64,000 bases of DNA from an uncultured Pseudothermotoga sp. (lineage in GTDB: Bacteria; Thermotogota; Thermotogae; Thermotogales; DSM-5069): contig CALKJI010000007.1 in the NCBI GenBank assembly GCA_937995655.1, positions 1 to 64,000 of the forward strand, read 5' to 3'. Shown here piece after piece: positions 9,949-58,825 of the stretch (within the stretch, counting starts at the first letter, position 1; each line of letters starts with the position of its first letter). Both the position numbers and the translations under genes were made by a program. The notes beneath the pieces are model-generated. The model was not told the origin of the DNA, did not search any database, and saw only the letters and a list, made by a program, of their open reading frames with translations.

Positions 9949-11335
9949 ACTCTTTGCAGCCATAGACATTGGCACAACCAATGTCAAAGTAGCAGTCTTC
10001 GATGAAAATTTTGACACAGTCTTTGATTTTCAACGAAGGTGCACTGAATCTAAAGCAAACAACACACACGAGATTGACCCTGAAAAGTGGTGGAAGATCG
10101 TTGCACAGGGTTTTCACACTATGGACCAAAATTTGAGAAAAAAGATTGTCTCAATTTGCACAACGGGCCAGGGACCAACGACTGTACTCGTTGACAAAGA
10201 TGGTAGAACGGTCAGAAAAGCTATCACTTGGCTTGACAAAAGAGGATATGAATATATCAATTCTATAATCGAGAGAGGAATCGATGAGCAAATCGCTACG
10301 GTGATCTCCCATCTCCTTTCAATTGAAAAAGATATTGATCAAGCTTATCTGATTCAGCCTAGTGATTATATAGTTCTGAAATTGACAGGTTCCATAGTGA
10401 ACGCAACCTTTCCATTTGAAGGATATCTTCCGTGGGACAAGAAAACTTTAGAAATTTATGATTTGGATAAGACCTTCCACATACCGGAGTTGGTACCAGC
10501 AGGAAGCATAATCGGTAAGATCAGTAAAGAAGTTTCCAAAACCTTGGGACTGAACGACCAAGTTAAAATCGTCGCCGGATCTGTAGATTTTGCCATGGCC
10601 CTTGTCGGTACAGGTGTTTTGGAAGATGGGATGCTCTGCGATCGAGGCGGCACATCTCAGGGATTGACACTTTGCAGTAGGGAAAGATTTTGTTGTCAAG
10701 GTCTAATAACGGTGCCCTTTTTCATAAAGGACCATTGGAAAGTAAGCGCTGTCATGACAACGACAGGCAAGTCCTACGAATGGCTGTCACGAAATGTGAC
10801 CAGAACAAGATTGGTGGAACTATCCCAGTTGATCGCTGTGAAAAGGCCAACGAACGTGATTTTCTTGCCACATTTGAACGGTGAAAGAAGTCCATATTGG
10901 AACAAAGACCTCAAAGGAGTATTCTTTGGATTGACGCTGAAGGATGATTGGAGATCTCTTTTAGTCTCTGTAATTGAAGGTGTTGCCTATGCCATGAAAA
11001 ACATTGTTCAGATAATGGAGTCGTGTGGATACAAGATAAAGACCATCAGGGCAACAGGCGGCCAAGCCATGAATGAACTATGGAACCAGATAAAGGCAGA
11101 CGTCTTAGGAAAAGAAATTGAAGTACCAGAGGTTTTCGATTCAGAACTGCTCGGTTGCGCAATAATCTCAAAGTCGGCTTTGACGGGAGAAAGTTTCACA
11201 GAACTGAGTAAAAAGCTTGTAAAGATTTCAAAGGTATTTACCCCTTTGATGGCCAGACACGACGAATACGAAAGATGTTTCCAAGTCTACAAGGAACTGC
11301 ATGAACGCAATATCGATCTTTTCAGTAAGCTGTGA
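9938..11335 (+). CDS. FGGY-family carbohydrate kinase
   Basis: A 465-residue kinase of the xylulokinase/gluconate kinase superfamily. The phosphate-1 motif is AIDIGTTNVKVAVFDENFD at the N-terminus. ICTTGQGPTTVLVDKDGR, TWLDKRG and ATGGQAMNELWNQIKAD complete the ATPase fold and the C-terminal FGGY signature. I start it at GTG 9938, behind AAGGGGAG; longer in-frame starts lie deep inside rpiR without a ribosome site. The substrate is not clear from sequence. Operon context (BMP importer, RpiR regulator) suggests it phosphorylates the imported compound. Its TGA shares the hexamer TGATCA with the stop of the convergent gene. Confidence 0.87.
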   Translation: MYSELFAAIDIGTTNVKVAVFDENFDTVFDFQRRCTESKANNTHEIDPEKWWKIVAQGFHTMDQNLRKKIVSICTTGQGPTTVLVDKDGRTVRKAITWLDKRGYEYINSIIERGIDEQIATVISHLLSIEKDIDQAYLIQPSDYIVLKLTGSIVNATFPFEGYLPWDKKTLEIYDLDKTFHIPELVPAGSIIGKISKEVSKTLGLNDQVKIVAGSVDFAMALVGTGVLEDGMLCDRGGTSQGLTLCSRERFCCQGLITVPFFIKDHWKVSAVMTTTGKSYEWLSRNVTRTRLVELSQLIAVKRPTNVIFLPHLNGERSPYWNKDLKGVFFGLTLKDDWRSLLVSVIEGVAYAMKNIVQIMESCGYKIKTIRATGGQAMNELWNQIKADVLGKEIEVPEVFDSELLGCAIISKSALTGESFTELSKKLVKISKVFTPLMARHDEYERCFQVYKELHERNIDLFSKL

Positions 11336-16484: not shown

Positions 16485-18362
16485 CTATGAGATCGTCGCG
16501 CCAGGAGCGATATCTCCATCTACCGTTAAAACTCTCAGGTTAGTACTATCCTTCGCCGCAAGTAACATCCCCTGTGATTCGACTCCCATCAACTTCGCCG
16601 GCTTGAGATTTACAACTACGATGATAGTTTTGCCAACAAGACTTTCTGGCTCATAATATTTCGCAATACCTGCTACGATTTGCCTTTGACCAAGGTCGCC
16701 TACATCAACAATGAGTTTGAGCAACTTATCAGATTTTGGTACCCTCTCAGCCGAAAGCACCTTTGCCGTTCTCAGTTTAACCTTTTTGAATTCATCAAGC
16801 TCGATGAGATCATCCATTCTCGGTTCACTCTCCTTTTTCTCAGTGGCAAATTCCTTCTTTTCAAACAAAGGTTTCCCATGGACTATTCTCACAGAGGGTT
16901 TCAAAATACCCCATCTATCGAGAAGTTCTTTGGAAGGTCCCCAATCAAAGCCAACTCTTAACAAAACTTCCCTAGAAGAATCTGGCATTATTGGTGAAAA
17001 CATCACAGCCACCTTCATCAGGGCTTCACAGGTGTTGTACAGGACCGTAGAGAGCCTTGAAAAGTCCTTCTGTTTTGCCAAAATCCATGGTCTTTTCTCA
17101 TCGAAGTATTTGTTCGAAAGCATTAGAATCTCCAAAATTTTCTCCACCGCTTGTGTCAAAGAGTATTCTTCCATCAACTTTTCATATTCTTTTACACGCT
17201 GCATGACATCTTCTTTGAATCTTTCATCTATTTCATCATGCTCTTTTGGCTCTGGTAAGACCGATGAATAATGTTTTTCCAGCATGGCCAGTGTTCTGTG
17301 CAAAAGATTGCCATAATCATTCGCAAGATCTGAATTCAATCTGTTCACAAGATTTTTTTCAGAGAAATCTCCATCTTTACCAAAGTTGATATCTCTCAAA
17401 AGATAAAATCTAAGAACATCGTTACCGTACTTTTCAACGAAATAACTTGGATCTATAGCATTGCCCAAAGATTTGGAGATCTTCTGACCGTCGACCGTTA
17501 GCCAACCGTGAGCAAAAACGGTCTTGGGTAAAGGTAATCCAACAGAGATAAGCATGGCTGGCCAAACAATGGAATGAAAGCGGTTGATCTCTTTACCTAT
17601 CAAGTGTAAATCGGCAGGCCAGTATCTGTTGAATTTCTCCGTATCAAAAGGATAACCTATCGCTGAAATATAATTTATCAATGCATCAACCCAGACATAT
17701 ATAACATGTTCTGGATCGTCTGGCATAGGGACTCCCCACTTGAAGGTTGTCCTAGTGATACTCAAATCTTTTAAGCCACCTTCAAGGATCTTTAGCATCT
17801 CGTTTCTTCGAAAATCTGGCTGAACAAACTCAGGATGATTTCTGTAATGTTCTAAAAGCGCATCTGTATACTTTGAAAGCCTGAAAAAATAGTTTTCCTC
17901 AGTTATATACTTCAATTCTCTTCCACAGGAAGGACAAAGTCTTTCAGCTCCTATCTCCTCTTCGTTCCAATAACTTTCACAGGGCACACAGTACCAACCT
18001 TTATACTCACCCTTGTATAAATCTCCATTTTCCATCATCTTTTTGACAAAATACTGCACTACCTTCATATGATCTTGGTCTGTCGTTCTTATGAAACCAT
18101 CGTTCGTGATTCCAAGTTTTTTCCATAGTTTTTTGAATCTGCCCGCAAGCTCGTCACAAAAACTCTGCGGGTCTTTTCCGGCATTGGTTGCTGCCTGTAA
18201 GATCTTCTGGCCATGTTCATCTGTACCAGTCAAGAAAAAAACATCGTACCCCATCATACGTTTGTACCTTGCTATGATGTCAGCAATTATGGTCGTGTAA
18301 GCACTACCAACATGGGGGTCAGAGTTCACATAGTATATGGGCGTAGTGATATAAAACTTCAG
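16485..18362 (-). CDS. metG: Methionyl-tRNA synthetase with C-terminal tRNA-binding domain
   Basis: A synthetase of 625 residues. It has FYITTPIYYVNSDPHVGSAY (HIGH motif), KISKSLGNAIDP (KMSKS) and a zinc knuckle (CVPCESYWNEEE, then CPSCGREL). Residues from about 520 are the EMAP/Trbp111-like domain (VKLRTAKVLSAERVPKSDKL) that dimerises and holds tRNA. The start is unusual. The strong GGAGG at 18375-18371 sits 8 bases before CTG 18362, which gives the standard N-terminus (M)KFYITTP. An in-frame GTG at 18377 overlaps that site and is less likely. Confidence 0.95.
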   Translation of the reverse strand: MKFYITTPIYYVNSDPHVGSAYTTIIADIIARYKRMMGYDVFFLTGTDEHGQKILQAATNAGKDPQSFCDELAGRFKKLWKKLGITNDGFIRTTDQDHMKVVQYFVKKMMENGDLYKGEYKGWYCVPCESYWNEEEIGAERLCPSCGRELKYITEENYFFRLSKYTDALLEHYRNHPEFVQPDFRRNEMLKILEGGLKDLSITRTTFKWGVPMPDDPEHVIYVWVDALINYISAIGYPFDTEKFNRYWPADLHLIGKEINRFHSIVWPAMLISVGLPLPKTVFAHGWLTVDGQKISKSLGNAIDPSYFVEKYGNDVLRFYLLRDINFGKDGDFSEKNLVNRLNSDLANDYGNLLHRTLAMLEKHYSSVLPEPKEHDEIDERFKEDVMQRVKEYEKLMEEYSLTQAVEKILEILMLSNKYFDEKRPWILAKQKDFSRLSTVLYNTCEALMKVAVMFSPIMPDSSREVLLRVGFDWGPSKELLDRWGILKPSVRIVHGKPLFEKKEFATEKKESEPRMDDLIELDEFKKVKLRTAKVLSAERVPKSDKLLKLIVDVGDLGQRQIVAGIAKYYEPESLVGKTIIVVVNLKPAKLMGVESQGMLLAAKDSTNLRVLTVDGDIAPGATIS

Positions 18363-18450
18363 AAAAATCACCTCCACTGTTGTTTTTATTTTACCTCATT
18401 TTCATTTCTAAAAAATTTCAGCTTGTGCCCCGTTTTGTTTATGAAGAATT

Positions 18451-20010
18451 TCACAAATAAAAGAGTTGCTGTGTAATCACCTTTTGTCCCCAACGCTTGA
18501 CAAACCATCCTCTGTCCGTTGTGTGAACAGGCAATATGAACTCTGGATTAAGATCATTTATCAATTGCTCAAGTTTTTCAGCTCCCACATGCCCAGAGGC
18601 GTGAAATTGTTTATTAAATAGGACTTTACCATCTTCGGTAATCTCAAAACCATGTGTCTGTATAGAGAACTTCCTTGTCCAGTTAGCAAACCTCAAAAAA
18701 TCCATCTGTTGTTCCTCTGAATAAGCTTCGCTCGATGAATGAATGTATATAGAACCCTTTAAAACTTCCTCATCCAGATCGAGTATGTTGTGAAAATCCC
18801 AGTATCCTGCCGAAACCATATAGTTTGACGGGCGCAAATTGATGGAATCTGGTGACAACAAAATTCCACTGATCTTTGCCTGTTCCATGATATCTCTCTC
18901 GAGCCCCACAAAAGACGACTTGGCCGTGTGAAAAACCCTAATATGTTTTGTCTCATCGTCAGATAATCTCCATATAGGTTCTACTTCGCCCATTTTGACA
19001 AGATAGGCATAATCCTTTGGCATCAAAACGAGCAGCCTGTTGGTATTTAGGGCAATCTTTAAAAAACTCATCATCCTTTCAAGGTGTTTTACAGAAAAAT
19101 CAACTATCACAAGCTTGTTGGTCTTTTGAACAAGTTCAAGGGCCCTCTGATAAACATCTTTTTCGCTACCTTGCCAATGGTCCTCTCGAGCCACATTCGT
19201 TCCTTCGGTGATCAACAACAGGGGATGTTTGTCTTTCAGAAATTGGAAAAAACTGTTGGTTCTCATTGAGAGTTCGAGTCTACTTTCTCCCAAGCTTTCT
19301 GCCCAGAAACTTTCTTCTTTTGTATCGGGACCCGTTCTAAAATCTCCAGTGTAGACAACCCACCAATCGTCAACCTTTGCAACCAGACCGGCTGCTCCGA
19401 TGACTGAATGATAAACAGGTAATACATACAACTGATCTTTCCAGAGTTCCTTGATATCTAAATGGATAAAATACTCTGGATCTAGGGACCAAGAAGTTTC
19501 CGAGCGATTTTTTACACAGATCTTCCTTTTGATGAATGACTTTTTTTCGGCTTTTAGCACATCGGGCCTGTAGATATCATCATCTTGAGATCTTTGCCTC
19601 TTTCGCAAATACAACTCGTTCCACACTTGTTGCTTGATTTGAGCATTTGTCTCAAGGATTGCCAGAGTTTCGTTTGTGGTCAATATGGGTATTTCTTCAC
19701 TCACTAACCCGTTAAAACCGGTATGATCCTCGTGGCCATGACTCAGAAACAAGAAATGTATGTGCTTATCTTTTTCAAACTCAGGTGGCTCGAGATCTTT
19801 TCTATAGATATCGATCCTCGGTAATAATTCCAGTTTGAGAAGATCGTGTAGAATTTTACCAGTTCTTGGCTTCAAATACTCTTCAAAGTACAAGGACCAC
19901 TTTGAAAAATTCAAACCAAAGTCTAGCAGGAAACCGTCGTTAGAATTATCGATCACCAGGATCTTGTTACCACCTATGCAATCAAATCCATCCAAGACTT
20001 CTACCTTCAA
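18451..20010 (-). CDS. Beta-CASP metallo-beta-lactamase protein (RNase J-like)
   Basis: A 519-residue zinc hydrolase. The metal motif is FLSHGHEDH, and YTGDFRTGPDT supplies a downstream ligand. The beta-CASP region carries SSSEAYSEEQ, FHASGHVGAEKL and ILPVHTTDRGW, in the order expected of RNase J/CPSF nucleases. It is divergent from ordinary RNase J, so RNA as substrate is inferred from the family. The start is TTG at 20010, 6 bases after AGGGGGA; an ATG at 20043 would bury that site. It is transcribed towards metG and is divergent from the sugar ABC operon. Confidence 0.85.
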   Translation of the reverse strand: MKVEVLDGFDCIGGNKILVIDNSNDGFLLDFGLNFSKWSLYFEEYLKPRTGKILHDLLKLELLPRIDIYRKDLEPPEFEKDKHIHFLFLSHGHEDHTGFNGLVSEEIPILTTNETLAILETNAQIKQQVWNELYLRKRQRSQDDDIYRPDVLKAEKKSFIKRKICVKNRSETSWSLDPEYFIHLDIKELWKDQLYVLPVYHSVIGAAGLVAKVDDWWVVYTGDFRTGPDTKEESFWAESLGESRLELSMRTNSFFQFLKDKHPLLLITEGTNVAREDHWQGSEKDVYQRALELVQKTNKLVIVDFSVKHLERMMSFLKIALNTNRLLVLMPKDYAYLVKMGEVEPIWRLSDDETKHIRVFHTAKSSFVGLERDIMEQAKISGILLSPDSINLRPSNYMVSAGYWDFHNILDLDEEVLKGSIYIHSSSEAYSEEQQMDFLRFANWTRKFSIQTHGFEITEDGKVLFNKQFHASGHVGAEKLEQLINDLNPEFILPVHTTDRGWFVKRWGQKVITQQLFYL

Positions 20011-50462: not shown

Positions 50463-50929
50463 TGGAAATAACGATAGCTATCGTCATAATCAGTTTACTG
50501 CTCCTGAGCCTTAAGGGAAGATCACCCAGGTTGTCAGATTTGCGAACAAGGTGGGCAAACGGCTTTAAAGATGGATGGACTTTCGAACAGTTCATGGCAG
50601 ATCTTTTCAACAGTCTGGGTTATAGGGCTGTAGTAACCAAAGGCTCTCACGATTTTGGAGTCGATCTGATAGTCAAGAACGGCAAGGCTACTTACATATT
50701 CCAAGCCAAGTACTACAGCAACTCCATATCACCAAAAGCACTTGAAGAAGCCTTAATGGCGGCTGCGTTGTACGGTGTCGATAGAATTGGTATCATCACT
50801 AACGCCGAGATTCCACAGGCAGTAAAAAATTTGGCTCAGGAGATCTGTAGGAAAACCTTTGTCAAAAAGGTTGTTCTGATCAGCAGATCAGAGATAGAGA
50901 AGATGCTGACAGGTGAAAAACTTATCTGA
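50456..50929 (+). CDS. Membrane-anchored Mrr-type restriction-endonuclease-like protein
   Basis: A 157-residue protein. A helix at 4-19 anchors it. Residues 42-150 form a PD-(D/E)xK Mrr_cat domain: Glu44 (WTFEQFMADLFNSLGY), Asp70 (GSHDFGVDLIV) and Gln83-x-Lys85 (IFQAKYY) are the nuclease residues, all present. YGVDRIGIITNAEIPQAVK is the usual following stretch. Stand-alone anchored Mrr proteins are found in several bacteria with unknown targets. The ATG overlaps the previous stop, with GGGAG 8 bases before it. Confidence 0.82.
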   Translation: MLMEITIAIVIISLLLLSLKGRSPRLSDLRTRWANGFKDGWTFEQFMADLFNSLGYRAVVTKGSHDFGVDLIVKNGKATYIFQAKYYSNSISPKALEEALMAAALYGVDRIGIITNAEIPQAVKNLAQEICRKTFVKKVVLISRSEIEKMLTGEKLI

Positions 50930-50942
50930 GGAGGTTTCAAAG

Positions 50943-52199
50943 ATGAGAGATTATAGGCAAATCCCCATTTGGAATAATGTTACACAAGAAGAATGGAATG
51001 ACTGGCACTGGCAACTGAGCAACAGAATAATGGATCTTGAGACATTACAAAAGGTTGTGAACCTAACTGAACAAGAAAGAGAAGGTGTCAGACATTGTCT
51101 AAAGTTCTTAAGGATGGCTATAACACCTTACTATGCAACTTTGATGGACCCAGATGATCCAAAATGCCCGGTGAGAATGCAAGCCATTCCGACCGCTAAG
51201 GAACTGAAAATTTCCAGCGAAGAGATGACCGATCCTCTACATGAAGACGTTGATTCGCCAGTGAAAGGATTAACACATAGGTATCCAGATCGCGTCCTTT
51301 TGTTGGTAACAGACCAATGTTCCATGTATTGTCGGCATTGTACTAGAAGAAGATTTGCTGGCGAAACCGATGCTCCCCTCCCTGAGGAATATTTGAACAA
51401 AGCTATCGAGTATATTAAAGACAATAGGAAGATCAGAGATGTCCTACTATCGGGAGGAGACCCTTTAACTCTTTCAACAGAAAAACTTGAGAGCATAATC
51501 TCTAAGATCAGAGAAATAGACCATGTCGAGATCATAAGAATAGGTACCCGTGTCCCCGTAGTACTACCTATGAGAATCACTGAGGAACTTGTGAAAATGC
51601 TGAGAAAATACCATCCAATATGGATAAACACACATTTCAACCACCCGAAAGAATTCACTGAACAATCAACCAAAGCACTGGCAATGCTTGCAGACAGTGG
51701 AATTCCACTTGGAAATCAAAGTGTTTTACTCAAAGGAATCAACGACTGTCCCCAAATTATGAAAAAGTTGGTGCATGAGCTAGTGAAGAACAGAGTGAGA
51801 CCATATTACATATATCAGTGTGATCTTTCCAAGGGACTGTCGCACTTCAGGACGACCGTTTCAAAAGGCATAGAAATCATAGAATATCTCAGAGGCCATA
51901 CCTCTGGCTTCGCTGTACCTACCTATGTGATCGATGCACCTGGTGGTGGAGGTAAGATTCCAATCGAACCTCAGTATTTGATCTCAATGGGTGAGGGAAA
52001 GGTAGTGATGAGAAACTACGAGGGAGGAATCTTTGTGTACCATGAACCACAAGACTACAAAAGTGAATGTGAAAACAATTATATCGAGGAAGAAAGGAAA
52101 AGTGAGGACGGTATTGCATCGTTGCTAAGCGGAAAGCGTAGATACCTGCTCCCTGAAGAAAGCGATAGAATTCGGAGGTTGAAAGATTGGGAAAAGTAA
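50943..52199 (+). CDS. kamA: L-lysine 2,3-aminomutase
   Basis: A radical SAM and PLP enzyme of 418 residues that turns L-lysine into beta-lysine. The cluster cysteines are 126, 130 and 133 (CSMYCRHC). The PLP lysine is in DAPGGGGK. Two Asp residues (YQCDLSKGLSHFR and YVIDAPGGGG) are those that bind the lysine side-chain amine in the clostridial enzyme; glutamate 2,3-aminomutases lack them, so lysine is favoured. The start ATG 50943 has GGAGG 8 bases upstream. The next gene resembles KamB. Confidence 0.9.
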   Translation: MRDYRQIPIWNNVTQEEWNDWHWQLSNRIMDLETLQKVVNLTEQEREGVRHCLKFLRMAITPYYATLMDPDDPKCPVRMQAIPTAKELKISSEEMTDPLHEDVDSPVKGLTHRYPDRVLLLVTDQCSMYCRHCTRRRFAGETDAPLPEEYLNKAIEYIKDNRKIRDVLLSGGDPLTLSTEKLESIISKIREIDHVEIIRIGTRVPVVLPMRITEELVKMLRKYHPIWINTHFNHPKEFTEQSTKALAMLADSGIPLGNQSVLLKGINDCPQIMKKLVHELVKNRVRPYYIYQCDLSKGLSHFRTTVSKGIEIIEYLRGHTSGFAVPTYVIDAPGGGGKIPIEPQYLISMGEGKVVMRNYEGGIFVYHEPQDYKSECENNYIEEERKSEDGIASLLSGKRRYLLPEESDRIRRLKDWEK

Positions 52200-53086
52200 T
52201 CTACGTTGTTGGTAACGAAAAAAATGTTGGTAAAACAACTGTGGTCAAACATCTTCTACAACAGATGAACAATGTCTGTGTCACGAGCATCGGTTTTGAT
52301 GGAGAAGAGACCGACAATATTACCGGATCGCCCAAACCTTTAGTCAAGCTCAAGCAAAATGATTTTGTCATAACCTGCGAAAGATTTCTTGATGCCTCAC
52401 ATTTCTCAGTAATTGAAGCAATTGATGAAAATCTTTTGGCTGGCACAGTTGTTTTGGCCCAATGTGTGCTTCCAACACATGTGATTATCGCAGGTGCGAC
52501 ACCCAGAGCTATTGAATTAGCCACCAAGAGAGAGTATTTCGAAACACTCATAGTTGATGGAGCTTTAGATAGGCTTGTGCATGCTGGATTCATAGATAAC
52601 GCAAGTATTATCTTTGTGATCGGTGTACAGCAGCAAGCAGAAGCAGAACTTCAGAGATCTATAGAACGCGTTCTGAGAGCCTTTCAAATTCCATTGGCAC
52701 CCCAATCTGTAACAGAAGTGTTCAGAAATTGCACCAATGTCTGCGGCTTGAGGAGCACCGGTATATTAGAGAAACTGAGCCCATCTTTACTGAACAACAC
52801 AATCCCAAACCAGGATAAATACGAATGGATCTTTGTTCCAGGCGTGCTTTTAGAGGAGACTGTAAGAAAATTCAGACAGACGAAATTTTGTCTATCCAAT
52901 CCCTTTTCGTTTTTCGCAAACCCACAAAAATTTGATAATATATATACGATGAAAAAATTGAAACTCAGTAGAATATATGTGAACCTTTTTGAAAAGCCCT
53001 GGTACGAAGAGAAGGTTTTCAAAATGGTCAAATCCTATGGATATGAAATTTTTGATATACTCCGTGCTGACTCTCAGGAGGGATGA
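52187..53086 (+). CDS. KamB-like P-loop protein (putative aminomutase reactivase subunit)
   Basis: A 299-residue protein with a Walker A loop, VGNEKNVGKTTVVKHLL, followed by CVTSIGFDGEETDNITGSP. This pair of motifs recalls KamB, a reactivase subunit for the B12-dependent lysine 5,6-aminomutase in clostridial lysine degradation. KamC, KamD and KamE are not nearby. The C-terminal 60 residues look unrelated and basic. The start is TTG with GGAGG 8 bases before it, overlapping kamA by 13 bases, which supports a joint function. Confidence 0.6.
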   Translation: MGKVIYVVGNEKNVGKTTVVKHLLQQMNNVCVTSIGFDGEETDNITGSPKPLVKLKQNDFVITCERFLDASHFSVIEAIDENLLAGTVVLAQCVLPTHVIIAGATPRAIELATKREYFETLIVDGALDRLVHAGFIDNASIIFVIGVQQQAEAELQRSIERVLRAFQIPLAPQSVTEVFRNCTNVCGLRSTGILEKLSPSLLNNTIPNQDKYEWIFVPGVLLEETVRKFRQTKFCLSNPFSFFANPQKFDNIYTMKKLKLSRIYVNLFEKPWYEEKVFKMVKSYGYEIFDILRADSQEG

Positions 53087-54192: not shown

Positions 54193-55032
54193 ATGAAGAT
54201 AATTTGTAAAAATATCAGCAAATCTTTTTCAGGTAAAAGAGTACTTGAGGGTATCACATTTGAATCTAAAGAAAGTTGTGTAGCAATTTTGGGAGCTAAC
54301 TCTGCGGGAAAGACTACTTTACTAAAAATTTTTGCCACCATTCTCAAACCCGATTTTGGTGATATAAAAATCGATCAGATCGATATAGTAAAAGAACCCA
54401 AAAAGATTAGAAGAATACTCAGCTTTGTGCCAGAAAACCCTTTTCTGCTGAGAGAACTCAGTGCCATCGATAACATAAAACATTTTTCTTACTTGAAAAA
54501 GGTCAAAGTAAATCCAAAACAGGTGATAGAACAGTTTTGTATACCATTCACAAATAATCCTGTCAGAACTCTTTCAAAAGGAATACAACAAAGACTGATG
54601 GTTGCCATCGCCCTGATGAGCAATCCAAGGTTGTTGATACTTGATGAACCCACAAATAGCATTGATCGTGAATCAAAAGAAGTTTTGTGGAAATTACTCG
54701 TTCAGATGAAGGAAGAAGGAAAGATTGTACTGCTAAGCACACACGATGAGGAAGAAGTTTTAGCTCTCGCAGATTATGTGATCATTCTGGATCAAGGTAG
54801 AGTACTTTTCAGTGGGCATGTTAAGGAGCTCCCCGTTGGAAAATTTTACGTGGTTCAGATACAGGATCAGTTACTCTTGGGGAGCCATACTTTATCAGAT
54901 TCGAATGGGAAAGCTTCCCTCCTTGTCGAATACGAGGAACTGCCCAAGCTAATTAGTCAGCATAAAGTTTTAGGCATCAAGAATATTGGATTGAAAGAGT
55001 TATTAGATCTCAAAAATAAACAGTTGTCATGA
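54193..55032 (+). CDS. Orphan ABC transporter ATPase subunit
   Basis: A single-domain ATPase of 279 residues: Walker A GANSAGKTTLLKIFATIL, signature LSKGIQQRLMVAIALM, Walker B LLILDEPTNSIDRES and switch His in LSTHDEEEVLALADY. The C-terminal 60 residues are an extra domain. The pattern is that of exporter (ABC-2 type) ATPases, but no permease gene is nearby. It lies 3 bases after dnaN with a weak ribosome site, and overlaps the convergent glnQ-like gene by 23 bases. Confidence 0.85.
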   Translation: MKIICKNISKSFSGKRVLEGITFESKESCVAILGANSAGKTTLLKIFATILKPDFGDIKIDQIDIVKEPKKIRRILSFVPENPFLLRELSAIDNIKHFSYLKKVKVNPKQVIEQFCIPFTNNPVRTLSKGIQQRLMVAIALMSNPRLLILDEPTNSIDRESKEVLWKLLVQMKEEGKIVLLSTHDEEEVLALADYVIILDQGRVLFSGHVKELPVGKFYVVQIQDQLLLGSHTLSDSNGKASLLVEYEELPKLISQHKVLGIKNIGLKELLDLKNKQLS

Positions 55033-55741
55033 AATTTCTTGCATTTTCTGACGCCGGCTGTGTGAAAAAGCCATCAGGGTCTGAATCCTCGACTATGATG
55101 CCGTTTTCCATATACAATACCCTTGAAGCCACGCTTTTTGCAAAGTTGATCTCGTGTGTTACCACTATCATCGTATGACCTTGCGACGCCAATTTTTTCA
55201 TCACTTGATGAACTTCCCCAACCAAGGTTGGATCGAGGGCTGATGTTGGCTCATCAAAGAGTATGAGCTCTGGTTTCATCGCAAGGGCACGTGCAATCGC
55301 GACCCTTTGTTTTTGACCCCCTGAAAGTTGGGATGGATAACTCTGCGCCTTCTCGGTCAATCCAACTATTTCAAGAGATTCTTGCGCTATTTGATAGGCC
55401 TTGTCCCTGGGAAGTCTCTTGACCTTCATCAAACCGAGCACAACATTTTCCAAGGCTGTCATATGGCTGAAGAGATTGAAATGTTGAAATACAAAACCAA
55501 TCTGTGATCTTATCTGCCTCAGAATCGACTGGTCATCTACAACTCTTTGGTCCTTGAAAAATACTTCACCTTCATCGGGAGGTACCAGATAATTTATCGT
55601 TCTGAGCAACGTTGATTTACCAGCACCAGAAGGTCCCATTATGACAACTATCTCACCCTGTTCTACTTCAAAAGAGACACCTCTCAAAACCTCTGTTTTT
55701 CCATACCTTTTGTGAATATCGACCACTTGCAATAGGCTCAT
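55010..55741 (-). CDS. glnQ: Polar amino acid ABC importer ATPase (GlnQ-like)
   Basis: A 243-residue ATPase with GPSGAGKSTLLRTINYL, LSGGQKQRVAIARAL and LILFDEPTSALDPTLVGEV; the pattern VFQHFNLFSHMTALENVVLG is specific to polar amino acid importers. I start it at ATG 55741, overlapping the permease stop as ATGA; a TTG at 55768 is too far into the upstream gene. It is the third gene of the leader-controlled operon. Confidence 0.92.
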   Translation of the reverse strand: MSLLQVVDIHKRYGKTEVLRGVSFEVEQGEIVVIMGPSGAGKSTLLRTINYLVPPDEGEVFFKDQRVVDDQSILRQIRSQIGFVFQHFNLFSHMTALENVVLGLMKVKRLPRDKAYQIAQESLEIVGLTEKAQSYPSQLSGGQKQRVAIARALAMKPELILFDEPTSALDPTLVGEVHQVMKKLASQGHTMIVVTHEINFAKSVASRVLYMENGIIVEDSDPDGFFTQPASENARNFMTTVYF

Positions 55742-56457
55742 GGTATGGCAAGCCTCCTCTCTAACCAATTTCCGAAAACTGAAAGGACACTTGTGACTGC
55801 AACATAGAAAATTGCTATAGTCAGATAACTTTCAAAAGATGCCAAAGTTTGCGTTCCAACCTGTCTACCTGTCATCGTCAATTCAGCCAGTGCTATGACC
55901 GACGCCAAAGAACTGTCCTTTACAAGACTGATCGATTGGCCTATCAATGCAGGTAGTGAGATCCTAAGAGCCTGAGGAAAGTGAATGTACAGGAACACTT
56001 CTGCCCTGGTTAAACCAAGAGAAAAACCTGCTTCTAGTTCTCCTTTATCCACAGCATCAAGGCCAGAACGAATTATCTCTGCAAGATATGCACCCTCAAA
56101 AGCCGATAAACCAAAGACGGCAGCCCAAAATCTGTCAAAAGGTATTACACTACCAAGGCCATAGTAAGTCAAAAGTATCACAACAAGAAGTGGCGTGTTT
56201 CTGAAAAAGAAGATGTAGAGTAGGGCAAATTCCTTTAAAATTCCTGAAGATCTTCTCATCAAAGCAAAGACAATACCAATTGCAAATGAAATGAGTAGCG
56301 AAAAACCACTCAAGTTCATTGTGGTAAGTAATCCCTTCAAAAACACGACACGATACCTATAGACAATCGACCAATTGAAAGGATAAATCTGAGCCATGGA
56401 AAAATATATCGCAGCCAAAACTATTATCGTAAAAAATATCGCATAGAGCTTTTTCAT
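55738..56457 (-). CDS. Polar amino acid ABC importer permease (GlnP/HisM-like)
   Basis: A 239-residue membrane subunit with about five helices. The conserved loop is GLSAFEGAYLAEIIRSGLDA, then VDKGELEAGFSLGLTRAEVF. IYIFFFRNTPLLVVILLTYY is the family's N-terminal pattern. I start it at ATG 56457, 7 bases after GGGGG; a longer frame runs through the hairpin and into the binding-protein gene. A single permease implies a homodimeric channel. Confidence 0.9.
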   Translation of the reverse strand: MKKLYAIFFTIIVLAAIYFSMAQIYPFNWSIVYRYRVVFLKGLLTTMNLSGFSLLISFAIGIVFALMRRSSGILKEFALLYIFFFRNTPLLVVILLTYYGLGSVIPFDRFWAAVFGLSAFEGAYLAEIIRSGLDAVDKGELEAGFSLGLTRAEVFLYIHFPQALRISLPALIGQSISLVKDSSLASVIALAELTMTGRQVGTQTLASFESYLTIAIFYVAVTSVLSVFGNWLERRLAIP

Positions 56458-56472
56458 CCACATACCCCCAAG

Positions 56473-56494
56473 AATGAGGGCAGGAGCCCTCATT
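56473..56494 (-). other. Intercistronic stem-loop between binding-protein and permease genes
   Basis: AATGAGGGC / GCCCTCATT form a perfect 9-bp stem with a 4-base loop, overlapping the stop codon of the binding-protein gene. The T-run is poor, so an mRNA-stabilising or partially terminating role is likelier than full termination. It would raise binding-protein output over that of the permease. Confidence 0.65.
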
Positions 56495-57248
56495 CGGCGC
56501 CAAGCCACTTTTTGTAGAGTTCATCGATCAAACCAGTGGTTTTAACCCACTGCACGAAGGTGTCAAGCCACCTCAAAGTCTCCATGTCCCCTTTTCTTAT
56601 GGCAATCCCCAGATCCTCAAGGCTCAACAATTCTTGCACCATCCCAATCGTGTCGTATTTCTGTGTAAAGAACTTCACATAGATTGAATCATTCACCATG
56701 ATGTCGGCGCGTTTTGACACAACCTGAAAAGCTGCTTCATCCATTGTCGAAAAGGTTAATATCTTTGCCTTAGGGAACATTCTCCTTGCTGTGAATTCAC
56801 CTGTAGTGCCTAACTGAACCGCTATGGTTAACTGTTTTTGAGAAAGTTCCTGATAGGTTGGTGGTGTTTTGAAAACGGCTTTGTTGTATAATATAGCCTG
56901 TCCAACAGTCAAGTAAGGTATAGAAAAATTCACCTTTAGAGCGCGTTCGGGCGTGATTGTCATACCGGAAAAGATCATGTCAAACTTCCCAGAAAGGAGT
57001 GCCGGTATGACACCATCCCAGTTGACGATGACGTATTCTACCTTTACTCCAAGGATCTCGGCCATCTTTTTGATCAGTTCAATCTCAAGCCCGACGCGCT
57101 CCCCTTTTTCGTTTGTGCCATACAACGGCATGTAACCTTCGTCCTGACCGATCCTCAAAACACCTCTTTTTTGAATATCTTCGATCAACGAAGCAAAGCT
57201 CAATGCCGTAACTAGAACCAAGAAAATCACCACTAAAGACCTTTTCAC
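56490..57248 (-). CDS. Polar amino acid ABC substrate-binding protein
   Basis: A 252-residue periplasmic protein of family 3 (SBP_bac_3). The signal peptide covers about 1-19. LRIGQDEGYMPLYGTNEKGE and MIFSGMTITPERALKVNFS are the hallmark ligand-pocket stretches, and VQLGTTGEFTARRMFP is the hinge. No lipobox is present. The likely ligand is glutamine, arginine or lysine; the usual Asp for the alpha-amine is replaced by Asn in the stretch ADIMVNDSIYVK, so specificity is open. The start is GTG, 8 bases after GGAGG, below a terminator-containing leader. Confidence 0.9.
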   Translation of the reverse strand: MKRSLVVIFLVLVTALSFASLIEDIQKRGVLRIGQDEGYMPLYGTNEKGERVGLEIELIKKMAEILGVKVEYVIVNWDGVIPALLSGKFDMIFSGMTITPERALKVNFSIPYLTVGQAILYNKAVFKTPPTYQELSQKQLTIAVQLGTTGEFTARRMFPKAKILTFSTMDEAAFQVVSKRADIMVNDSIYVKFFTQKYDTIGMVQELLSLEDLGIAIRKGDMETLRWLDTFVQWVKTTGLIDELYKKWLGAE

Positions 57249-57451
57249 CTAAACCACCTCCGTATAATAAAAAAACCGGGCTGTTTTTCACAGCCCGGTT
57301 TTTAGTCCCTTAAGCCTATCAGGTGGCAACCAACGAAGTACCACCCGGGGAATAAACCGGGCCGTACCTCGTATGGTGCTTTATTTCAACTATTGACGGT
57401 CGAAGCTTGCCATAAAAACTACTCACCATTGCGCCACCCTTTTACTTTGTT
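57249..57451 (-). promoter_or_regulatory. Structured leader RNA (candidate riboswitch) of the amino acid ABC operon
   Basis: The roughly 200-base leader folds by eye into three helices. P1 is GGTGGC (57438-57433) with GCCACC (57327-57322). P2 is ATGGTG (57429-57424) with CACCAT (57378-57373), and above it AGTA and GAA face each other as in a loop-E motif. P3 is ACGAGGTAC (57372-57364) with GTACTTCGT (57341-57333), topped by GCCCGG/CCGGGT. GCCCGGTTT (57362-57354) can instead pair with AAACCGGGC (57301-57293), the 5' arm of the terminator. That is a complete on/off switch. It lacks the signatures of lysine, T-box, SAM, TPP, glycine or glutamine RNAs as I know them. Confidence 0.7.
57269..57298 (-). 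terminator. Leader terminator of the amino acid ABC operon
   Basis: CCGGGCTGT (57298-57290) and ACAGCCCGG (57284-57276) form a perfect 9-bp stem with a 5-base loop, followed by seven T residues (57275-57269). It lies 20 bases before the start codon of the binding-protein gene, so it must be conditional for the operon to be expressed. Confidence 0.9.
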
Positions 57452-57457
57452 TGCATA

Positions 57458-57486
57458 ATCATACTATGACAAAAAATATTTGTCAA
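57458..57486 (-). promoter_or_regulatory. Promoter of the leader and amino acid ABC operon
   Basis: Perfect TTGACA (57486-57481), a 17-base spacer and TATGAT (57463-57458) on the minus strand. It begins 8 bases after the stop of the TldE-like gene. Transcription would start near 57451, about 13 bases before P1 of the leader. Confidence 0.88.
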
Positions 57487-57493
57487 GAGTCAA

Positions 57494-58825
57494 TCAAGAC
57501 CCACTTCCCGCTACGTCGATATATTCAACCAAGACCGATGGGACATAAGAAGAACCCGAAACCAAATCGCAGTCATCACCTATATCTTCAATACTTTTGA
57601 GCACTTCTAGGATATTTCCCGAAATAGTGATCTGTTCTACGGGCTTGACGATCGCACCATTTTCAACGTAGTATCCCAAAGCGCTCACAGAAAATTCACC
57701 AGATACAGTTCTAACACCAGAATGTAGTCCATCGAGCGCGGTTACTATCACGCCCCTGTCAAGTTGTTTAATCAGATCTTGGTAACTCTTTTGACCAGCT
57801 GGGACAACTACATTCAACGGTACACATTTGTAGGTAAAAACATTGCCAGTGGGTTCGATACCATCCCTCTTTGCAGATTTGAGAGAATGAAAATATGTCG
57901 TTAACACACCCTGGTCGATGAAGGACTTCTCCTTTGTAGGTACTCCTTCGTTGTCAAAGGACCTCTTTATCGGTGCCTTTTCAAAAAATGGGTCATCGAT
58001 GATGGTGAGTTTTTCACTGGCAATCTTTGAATTGAGCTTACCTTTCAATGGTGATAAACCTTTTTGTACCAATTCAGCAGAAAAGATGGGCATGAAGGCA
58101 AACAGCAACTCTGAAAAGACATTGCGTCTGAGAATTGCTCTGTATTTACCCGATGGGATACTTTCAGCGCCGAGTTGAGAGATCGCCTCCTGAGCGGCTT
58201 CGGTGACAATCCTGTCTGGATCGATGTCGTTGGGTCTTGATCCAAACCTGACCTTCAAACCTCTTTTTGGTGTTTTTCCGTCCGAAGCAACAAGATACAG
58301 ATAAGCGACACCAAGACCGGCACTCTCTGAGAGGGACAATCCCTTTGTGTTGAATATGGATATTTCGTATCTTTCATGGGAATATACACTCATCATCACC
58401 ATAGCTATACGTTTATCAAAGTTCATTGCCTTTTGCTCCATGATCTTTGCAAAATCTATCTTGCTCTTTACAGGTATCTTTTCAAATTCGTCTTCAAAGT
58501 GCCTCGGATCAGAGTATTCGCCAGAACCATCGTGTATAGAGTCTTCTTCCAACGTATCGGTTACCAAAAAATTCTCATAGGCACTGTTTACTAAAAATTC
58601 TACAGAATCCTCATCAACGATCTCACATGAAGAAAAAGCAGCCTTTGAATCCTTCAAACCCTTGAATGTAACCCTTAAAGAATCTGCATCATTGTAGTTA
58701 TCAATATTCTGTTTACTCACAACGACTCCAAATTCCCTCTCCCTATTGAATCGAAGTTCGCATTCATCAAAACCTTTCTTCTTGGCATATGAAAAAACTT
58801 TGTCTTTAAAATCTTCTATTCTCAT
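57494..58825 (-). CDS. pmbA: TldE/PmbA-type metalloprotease subunit
   Basis: A 443-residue partner of TldD in the PmbA/TldD protease, which matures or degrades small modified peptides. It lacks the HExxxH site, as expected for TldE. Family stretches are DSLRVTFKGLKDSKAAFSSC, FDNEGVPTKEKSFIDQGVLT and GEFSVSALGYYVENGAIVKP. The ATG overlaps the tldD stop (ATGA), so a 1:1 heterodimer is likely. No ribosomal-peptide cluster is adjacent. Confidence 0.9.
   Translation of the reverse strand: MRIEDFKDKVFSYAKKKGFDECELRFNREREFGVVVSKQNIDNYNDADSLRVTFKGLKDSKAAFSSCEIVDEDSVEFLVNSAYENFLVTDTLEEDSIHDGSGEYSDPRHFEDEFEKIPVKSKIDFAKIMEQKAMNFDKRIAMVMMSVYSHERYEISIFNTKGLSLSESAGLGVAYLYLVASDGKTPKRGLKVRFGSRPNDIDPDRIVTEAAQEAISQLGAESIPSGKYRAILRRNVFSELLFAFMPIFSAELVQKGLSPLKGKLNSKIASEKLTIIDDPFFEKAPIKRSFDNEGVPTKEKSFIDQGVLTTYFHSLKSAKRDGIEPTGNVFTYKCVPLNVVVPAGQKSYQDLIKQLDRGVIVTALDGLHSGVRTVSGEFSVSALGYYVENGAIVKPVEQITISGNILEVLKSIEDIGDDCDLVSGSSYVPSVLVEYIDVAGSGS

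Follow-up and report, generated by a model that had tools for sequence, protein, structure and literature searches.

The leader upstream of the amino acid ABC transporter operon most probably acts by ribosome-mediated transcription attenuation, in which translation of a 36-codon leader peptide would sense lysyl-tRNA and, in this copy, perhaps also histidyl-tRNA. Comparison with related leaders and folding around a modelled ribosome both point to this reading, to which a probability of about 0.87 was assigned. The leader is about 200 nt long and lies on the minus strand of the window (the whole stretch of 64,000 nucleotides that was analysed), between a TldE/PmbA-like gene (57494-58825) and the operon. 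The three operon genes, also on the minus strand, encode an SBP_bac_3 amino-acid-binding protein (56490-57248, Pfam PF00497), a permease (55738-56508, PF00528) and an ATPase (55010-55768, PF00005). AncCDT-1, 3k4u and LAO-binding proteins are among the relatives of the binding protein. By sequence, its nearest natural protein of known structure was 3k4u, itself from an ABC transporter and reportedly solved with lysine; a literature search for the lysine ligand of PDB 3k4u returned no papers. A gene for lysine 2,3-aminomutase (radical SAM, LAM_C) was present at 50913-52199 on the plus strand, within a few kb of the lysine-type transporter operon, with an ORF lacking a Pfam match (52187-53086) on its 3' side. 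The proximity of this gene to the transporter is a hint that lysine may be catabolised after import.

All elements of the leader described below are on the minus strand. The promoter (57458-57486; TTGACA, 17 nt, TATGAT) had been called perfect in a first-pass annotation of this DNA; it is present and conserved in two relatives, and with 11 of the 12 consensus bases it is near-perfect. Between the promoter and the terminator lies a short ORF with a ribosome-binding site, as expected of an attenuator. This ORF (57319-57429, ATG at 57429 to TGA at 57319) had been overlooked in the first-pass annotation, and a translating ribosome is the most likely sensor. It encodes the peptide MVSSFYGKLRPSIVEIKHHTRYGPVYSPGGTSLVAT, and homologous leader ORFs were found at three other loci (L002, L012 and L015). 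The sequence AGGGTGG stands just 5' of the ATG, and the probable ribosome-binding site, AGGGTGGC (AAAGGTGG in relatives; 57433-57440), doubles as the 5' arm of a helix, P1, in which this region pairs with 57327-57322. The ORF then passes through the two further helices that had been proposed, P2 and P3. The proposed regulatory codons, AAG CAC CAT ACG AGG (K H H T R; 57367-57381), were assigned by ribosome-position folding and by their position, which matches that of KNAKK and KKAKR in lysine-biosynthesis leaders and of KKHVK in the transporter leaders of a second family, f9.

Just 3' of these codons, the coding sequence overlaps the 5' arm of hairpin P3 (57331-57371; upper stem GCCCGG/CCGGGT), the putative anti-antiterminator. 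The segment GCCCGGTTT (57362-57354) forms the upper half of P3 and is also the exact 9-nt complement of AAACCGGGC (57301-57293), the 5' part of the terminator; both of these alternative pairings had been correctly described in the first-pass annotation, and compensatory changes keep the second across the leader family. The intrinsic terminator (57268-57303) was likewise where it had been placed. Its stem (57303-57271; 10-14 bp) has 14 pairs, 7 of them GC, and is followed by a T run that ends 20 nt 5' of the GTG start codon at 57248. The anti-antiterminator, antiterminator and terminator are mutually exclusive, a further feature expected of an attenuator.

When lysyl-tRNA (here probably also histidyl-tRNA) is scarce, a ribosome would stall on the K-H-H codons and cover the 5' arm of P3, which would free GCCCGGTTT to pair with the 5' arm of the terminator and allow RNA polymerase to read into the transporter operon. 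With ample charged tRNA, the ribosome would continue to the stop codon, P3 would form and the terminator would end transcription. Translation and stalling themselves, and the amino acid or amino acids sensed, are what we infer.

Thirty leaders of the same design were found in 22 Thermotogota genomes, the family having first been found by searching outward from the terminator. All 30 had a leader ORF of 27-44 aa with the antiterminator Pro codon in the same frame, and nearly all had a recognisable ribosome-binding site. In three other genomes of the genus, the same binding-protein gene lay behind leaders encoding MVIGFCCWLQPSIVEIKHHAKYSPVDPRVVLR, MIDLYLRLQPSVVEIKHHAKYSPVDPPGGASRYTIR and MFINLFEKKASQMIKHYNRGSPVFFPGSICCGAA. 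The same architecture was present 5' of dapD in nine genomes of the window's own family (peptides ending, for example, in IEMKNAKKCNRPVITLGGVHVL and MKKDKKCNRPVICGGVRSL), of dapF in one genome (ending in NIKRYCPVIVEGRVCLY), of dapA in three genomes (with NKKAKRSHPL, IIIIKKRNRPP and IIKKTKHNCPL within the peptides) and of an asd-dapF-dapA-dapB-dapD operon in family f2, genera g5 and g6 (ending in MNKKAKRSCPLTGGQLAFGME). We take g5 and g6 to be Fervidobacterium-like and family f1 to be Pseudothermotoga-like. The leaders of the lysine-biosynthesis operons (dapD, dapF, dapA, asd) mostly carried runs of Lys codons (KNAKK, KKAKR, KKDKK) directly 5' of the Pro codon. The window's own genome contained a second lysine leader, before dapD (L041, G000:C1:50493-50583; MVKNFFEQISIEMKNAKKCNRPVIIPGGVHVL). 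A search for asd in the window's own family returned nothing.

A pattern of the three competing segments only, GCCCGS..SCGGGC..GCCCGSTTT, was then run over 103 Thermotogota genomes. It matched 23 of them, nearly all matches being these leaders, and the reversed control pattern gave 0 matches in the same 103 genomes. The match in the 23rd genome (L110 in G027) lay inside a coding gene and was set aside as a chance match. New with this pattern were three family f9 genomes (G020-G022), in which a relative of the binding-protein gene lies 3' of leaders ending in NIKKHVK[GRW]CCPGFLGSTA and a stop codon, as well as one further asd leader and one homoserine dehydrogenase leader (MCEVFVVAQLNSGTTTTSNCPPAERRLLVVV). 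This last leader (L130, G057:C1:390995-391085, minus strand) is of the same design, with a TTTT codon run in place of the Lys run. To judge by its codons it is a threonine attenuator in Thermotogota, and the Thr copy before homoserine dehydrogenase a natural codon swap. As TTTT replaces Lys before this gene, the codons correspond to the pathway downstream (lysine genes with Lys, homoserine dehydrogenase with Thr). The amino-acid logic of regulation that had been suggested earlier was right. In six genomes of the family, the approximately 1.5 kb 5' of hisD contained no His-run leaders, and leuA in G057 was not preceded by a convincing Leu-run leader; leader-peptide attenuation of this design was predicted only for lysine and the one threonine case.

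The ORF family, its in-frame coupling to the switch, the pathway-matched regulatory codons and the exclusive helices all emerge from sequence comparison. Codon counts, which are not independent because many of the sequences are related (independent units number about eight or nine), were strongly skewed towards one frame. Of the first 25 leaders, 25 were open for 18 codons upstream in the frame that contains the antiterminator Pro codon, compared with 2 and 3 of 25 in the other frames, and AAR (Lys) codons filled 69 of the 200 positions in the eight codons before the antiterminator, compared with 12 and 9. Across the 29 lysine-gene leaders, Lys occurred 78 times at positions -8 to -4 relative to the Pro codon, against 15.7 expected when residues were shuffled within each leader. 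All units agreed: transporter f1, transporter f9, dapD f1, dapF, the three dapA, asd f2 and hom. Counts of synonymous and non-synonymous changes were by themselves no proof of coding, the sequences being partly misaligned and of insufficient length. Codons for the regulated amino acid cluster at the switch, as in an attenuator; the window copy has only K and H-H (and R) there. With a single Lys codon in this critical stretch (K-H-H-T-R), as also in the dapF leader of G063, the lysine specificity of the window leader appears weaker than that of the dap leaders.

The first-pass annotation had read the leader as the complete layout of a transcriptional riboswitch, and a new riboswitch class, in which an aptamer of P1-P3 binds the transported amino acid and directly controls the terminator, would account for the strong fold (z-score -6.3, with 0 of 200 shuffles folding equally well), for the combination of P1-P3 with an exclusive antiterminator and for the lack of an Rfam match. 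Rfam 15 gave no match at gathering score in the window or in nine loci holding related leaders, nor any plausible family up to E = 10 for the leader, in line with the earlier failure to match it to a known class. The alignment of relatives that had been proposed to reveal covarying P1-P3 did so for one helix. Among four transporter leaders (the window and three same-genus relatives), P3 showed changes on both sides at 6 of 15 pairs, with 98% of cells paired; P1 showed one such change and was poorly conserved in the remotest of these relatives; P2 showed none. Comparison of relatives thus supports P3 and the terminator/antiterminator switch, weakly supports P1, and does not support P2 with its supposed loop-E-like AGTA/GAA, of which AGTA is not kept in relatives. 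The fold 5' of P3 is also absent from the dap and asd leaders, to which the ORF and regulatory codons are common, and a ligand aptamer would not predict Lys or Thr codons that match the downstream pathway. With only P3 covarying, and a region constrained by coding in place of a conserved non-coding aptamer core, a new riboswitch class is very improbable. What stands of that layout is the switch; the supposed ligand-binding aptamer gives way to a region that encodes a leader peptide in all relatives.

A tRNA-sensing T-box leader was considered because AGUA/GAA and GGGUGGUAC resemble specifier-loop and T-box elements, and the short matches GGGTGGTAC, AGTA and GAA can be seen by eye. The Rfam scans gave no such match, GGGTGGTAC belongs to the 3' arm of P3 and not to an antiterminator bulge, and does not occur in the dap and asd leaders, and AGTA is not conserved. 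A T-box was rejected on these grounds and is the least credible of the readings considered.

The antiterminator was supported across the family, with double-sided changes in 17 cells compared with 8.4 in shuffles, and with 88.9% of cells paired compared with at most 51% when the pairing was slid. Ribosome-position folding was performed on 25 leaders, with a ribosome footprint that reached up to 12 nt past the start of the A site and the RNA cut 5' of the 3' arm of the terminator. In nearly all leaders, the modelled antiterminator was highly probable as long as the A site had not moved past the last Lys codon (K, H, H in the window), and its probability dropped within one or two codons thereafter. 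In silico, a stalled ribosome would therefore free the antiterminator, and one past the codons largely would not. Without a ribosome, the equilibrium fold was the antiterminator in most leaders; termination in lysine-rich cells would therefore depend on P3 forming first during transcription, as we infer that it does, and on ribosome release.

The residues around the switch (K-x-x-K-[KR]-x-[CNS]-[RC]-P-[VL]) recur across distant lineages, which might indicate a nascent-peptide arrest switch of the TnaC or SpeFL type, in which the leader peptide, while in the exit tunnel, responds to free lysine or some other small molecule and not to tRNA charging at the codons. However, it is the RNA pairing segment GCCCG that dictates the Pro and the residues next to it, the N-terminal parts of the peptides are unrelated between lineages, and the homoserine dehydrogenase copy retains SNCP but has Thr in place of Lys, the outcome expected of codon sensing. 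Little weight is accordingly given to arrest by the peptide.

Riboswitch control of lysine genes in bacteria is textbook knowledge. The lysine riboswitch RF00168 was found in 57 of the 103 Thermotogota genomes and in none of the 22 that bear the leaders; its five-helix covariance model had no match in the window or in the whole of genome G000, and a lysine riboswitch was rejected for this leader. Sequence comparison thus shows leader peptides and lysine riboswitch to be complementary in distribution. In six sister genomes (G086, G087, G088, G097, G098 and G099), an orthologue of the window's binding-protein gene (59-65% identity) has a lysine riboswitch 75-177 nt to its 5' side, as in G086:C103, where riboswitch (19006-19190) and gene (18186-18932) are on the same strand. 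This position marks the transporter as a lysine-regulon gene. In G088:C68 (L024), the riboswitch precedes two tandem binding-protein paralogues (matches at 11329 and 13709).

Attenuation through the leader peptide may sense more than lysine in this genus. The critical codons are K-K-H-V-K in distant relatives, and K-H-H-(T/A)-(R/K) or K-H-Y-N-R in the window's genus. hisD had no match in four genomes of the genus (G000, G063-G065), and other genera of the family have it. Given one Lys and two His codons and the lack of a hisD match, combined lysine and histidine sensing by the window leader is possible. More tentatively, and on balance rather doubtfully, the transporter leader of the genus may have become a multi-amino-acid sensor, in which a shortage of any basic aminoacyl-tRNA (Lys, His, perhaps Arg) turns on one broad basic-amino-acid importer.

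Like the his, trp, thr, leu, ilv and phe leaders of Proteobacteria, the present leaders have a short ORF with its own ribosome-binding site, and pathway-matched codons adjoining a mutually exclusive anti-antiterminator, antiterminator and T-tailed terminator. They differ in their lysine codons and in their host phylum, Thermotogota. Unlike in any Rfam leader family, the three competing segments have a GCCCG[GC] core in common and, unlike in trp, the stop codon lies approximately 30-45 nt past the antiterminator segment, so that a terminating ribosome leaves it uncovered. The lysine riboswitch (L-box) serves the same genes, the asd-dap operon and the orthologous transporter, in sister Thermotogota, judging by position, but it senses its ligand directly, whereas the present leaders, without an RF00168 match, would act through translation. 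T-box leaders are alike in sensing tRNA charging and in controlling termination before amino-acid genes, but the present leaders have no conserved specifier loop or antiterminator bulge, and sensing would be by translation.

Attenuators have been listed for His, Leu, Thr, Trp, Ile/Val and Phe, with no lysine type, and are supposed to have arisen in gamma-proteobacteria (PMC3766115). A 2017 survey reported lysine riboswitches before the lysine operon in all Thermotogae species examined, without mention of attenuation, leader peptides, Fervidobacterium or Pseudothermotoga (PMC5584792), and a leader noted in Sinorhizobium contains six Thr codons together with three Lys codons (PMC10117765). No earlier lysine-specific leader-peptide attenuator, nor any leader-peptide attenuator in Thermotogota, was found in the open-licence literature searched, and an earlier description elsewhere is possible.

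With no hisD match found, uptake of histidine would be important to the genus. More broadly, three lineages without a detectable lysine riboswitch carry Lys-codon leader peptides in front of the same genes, orthologous transporter genes among them. If the attenuator reading is true, this would be a natural exchange of lysine sensors, free lysine versus charged tRNA-Lys, and lysine would join the amino acids listed as having leader-peptide attenuators (PMC3766115). Such attenuation would then also operate in thermophiles of an early-branching phylum, in contrast to the gamma-proteobacterial origin supposed for it.
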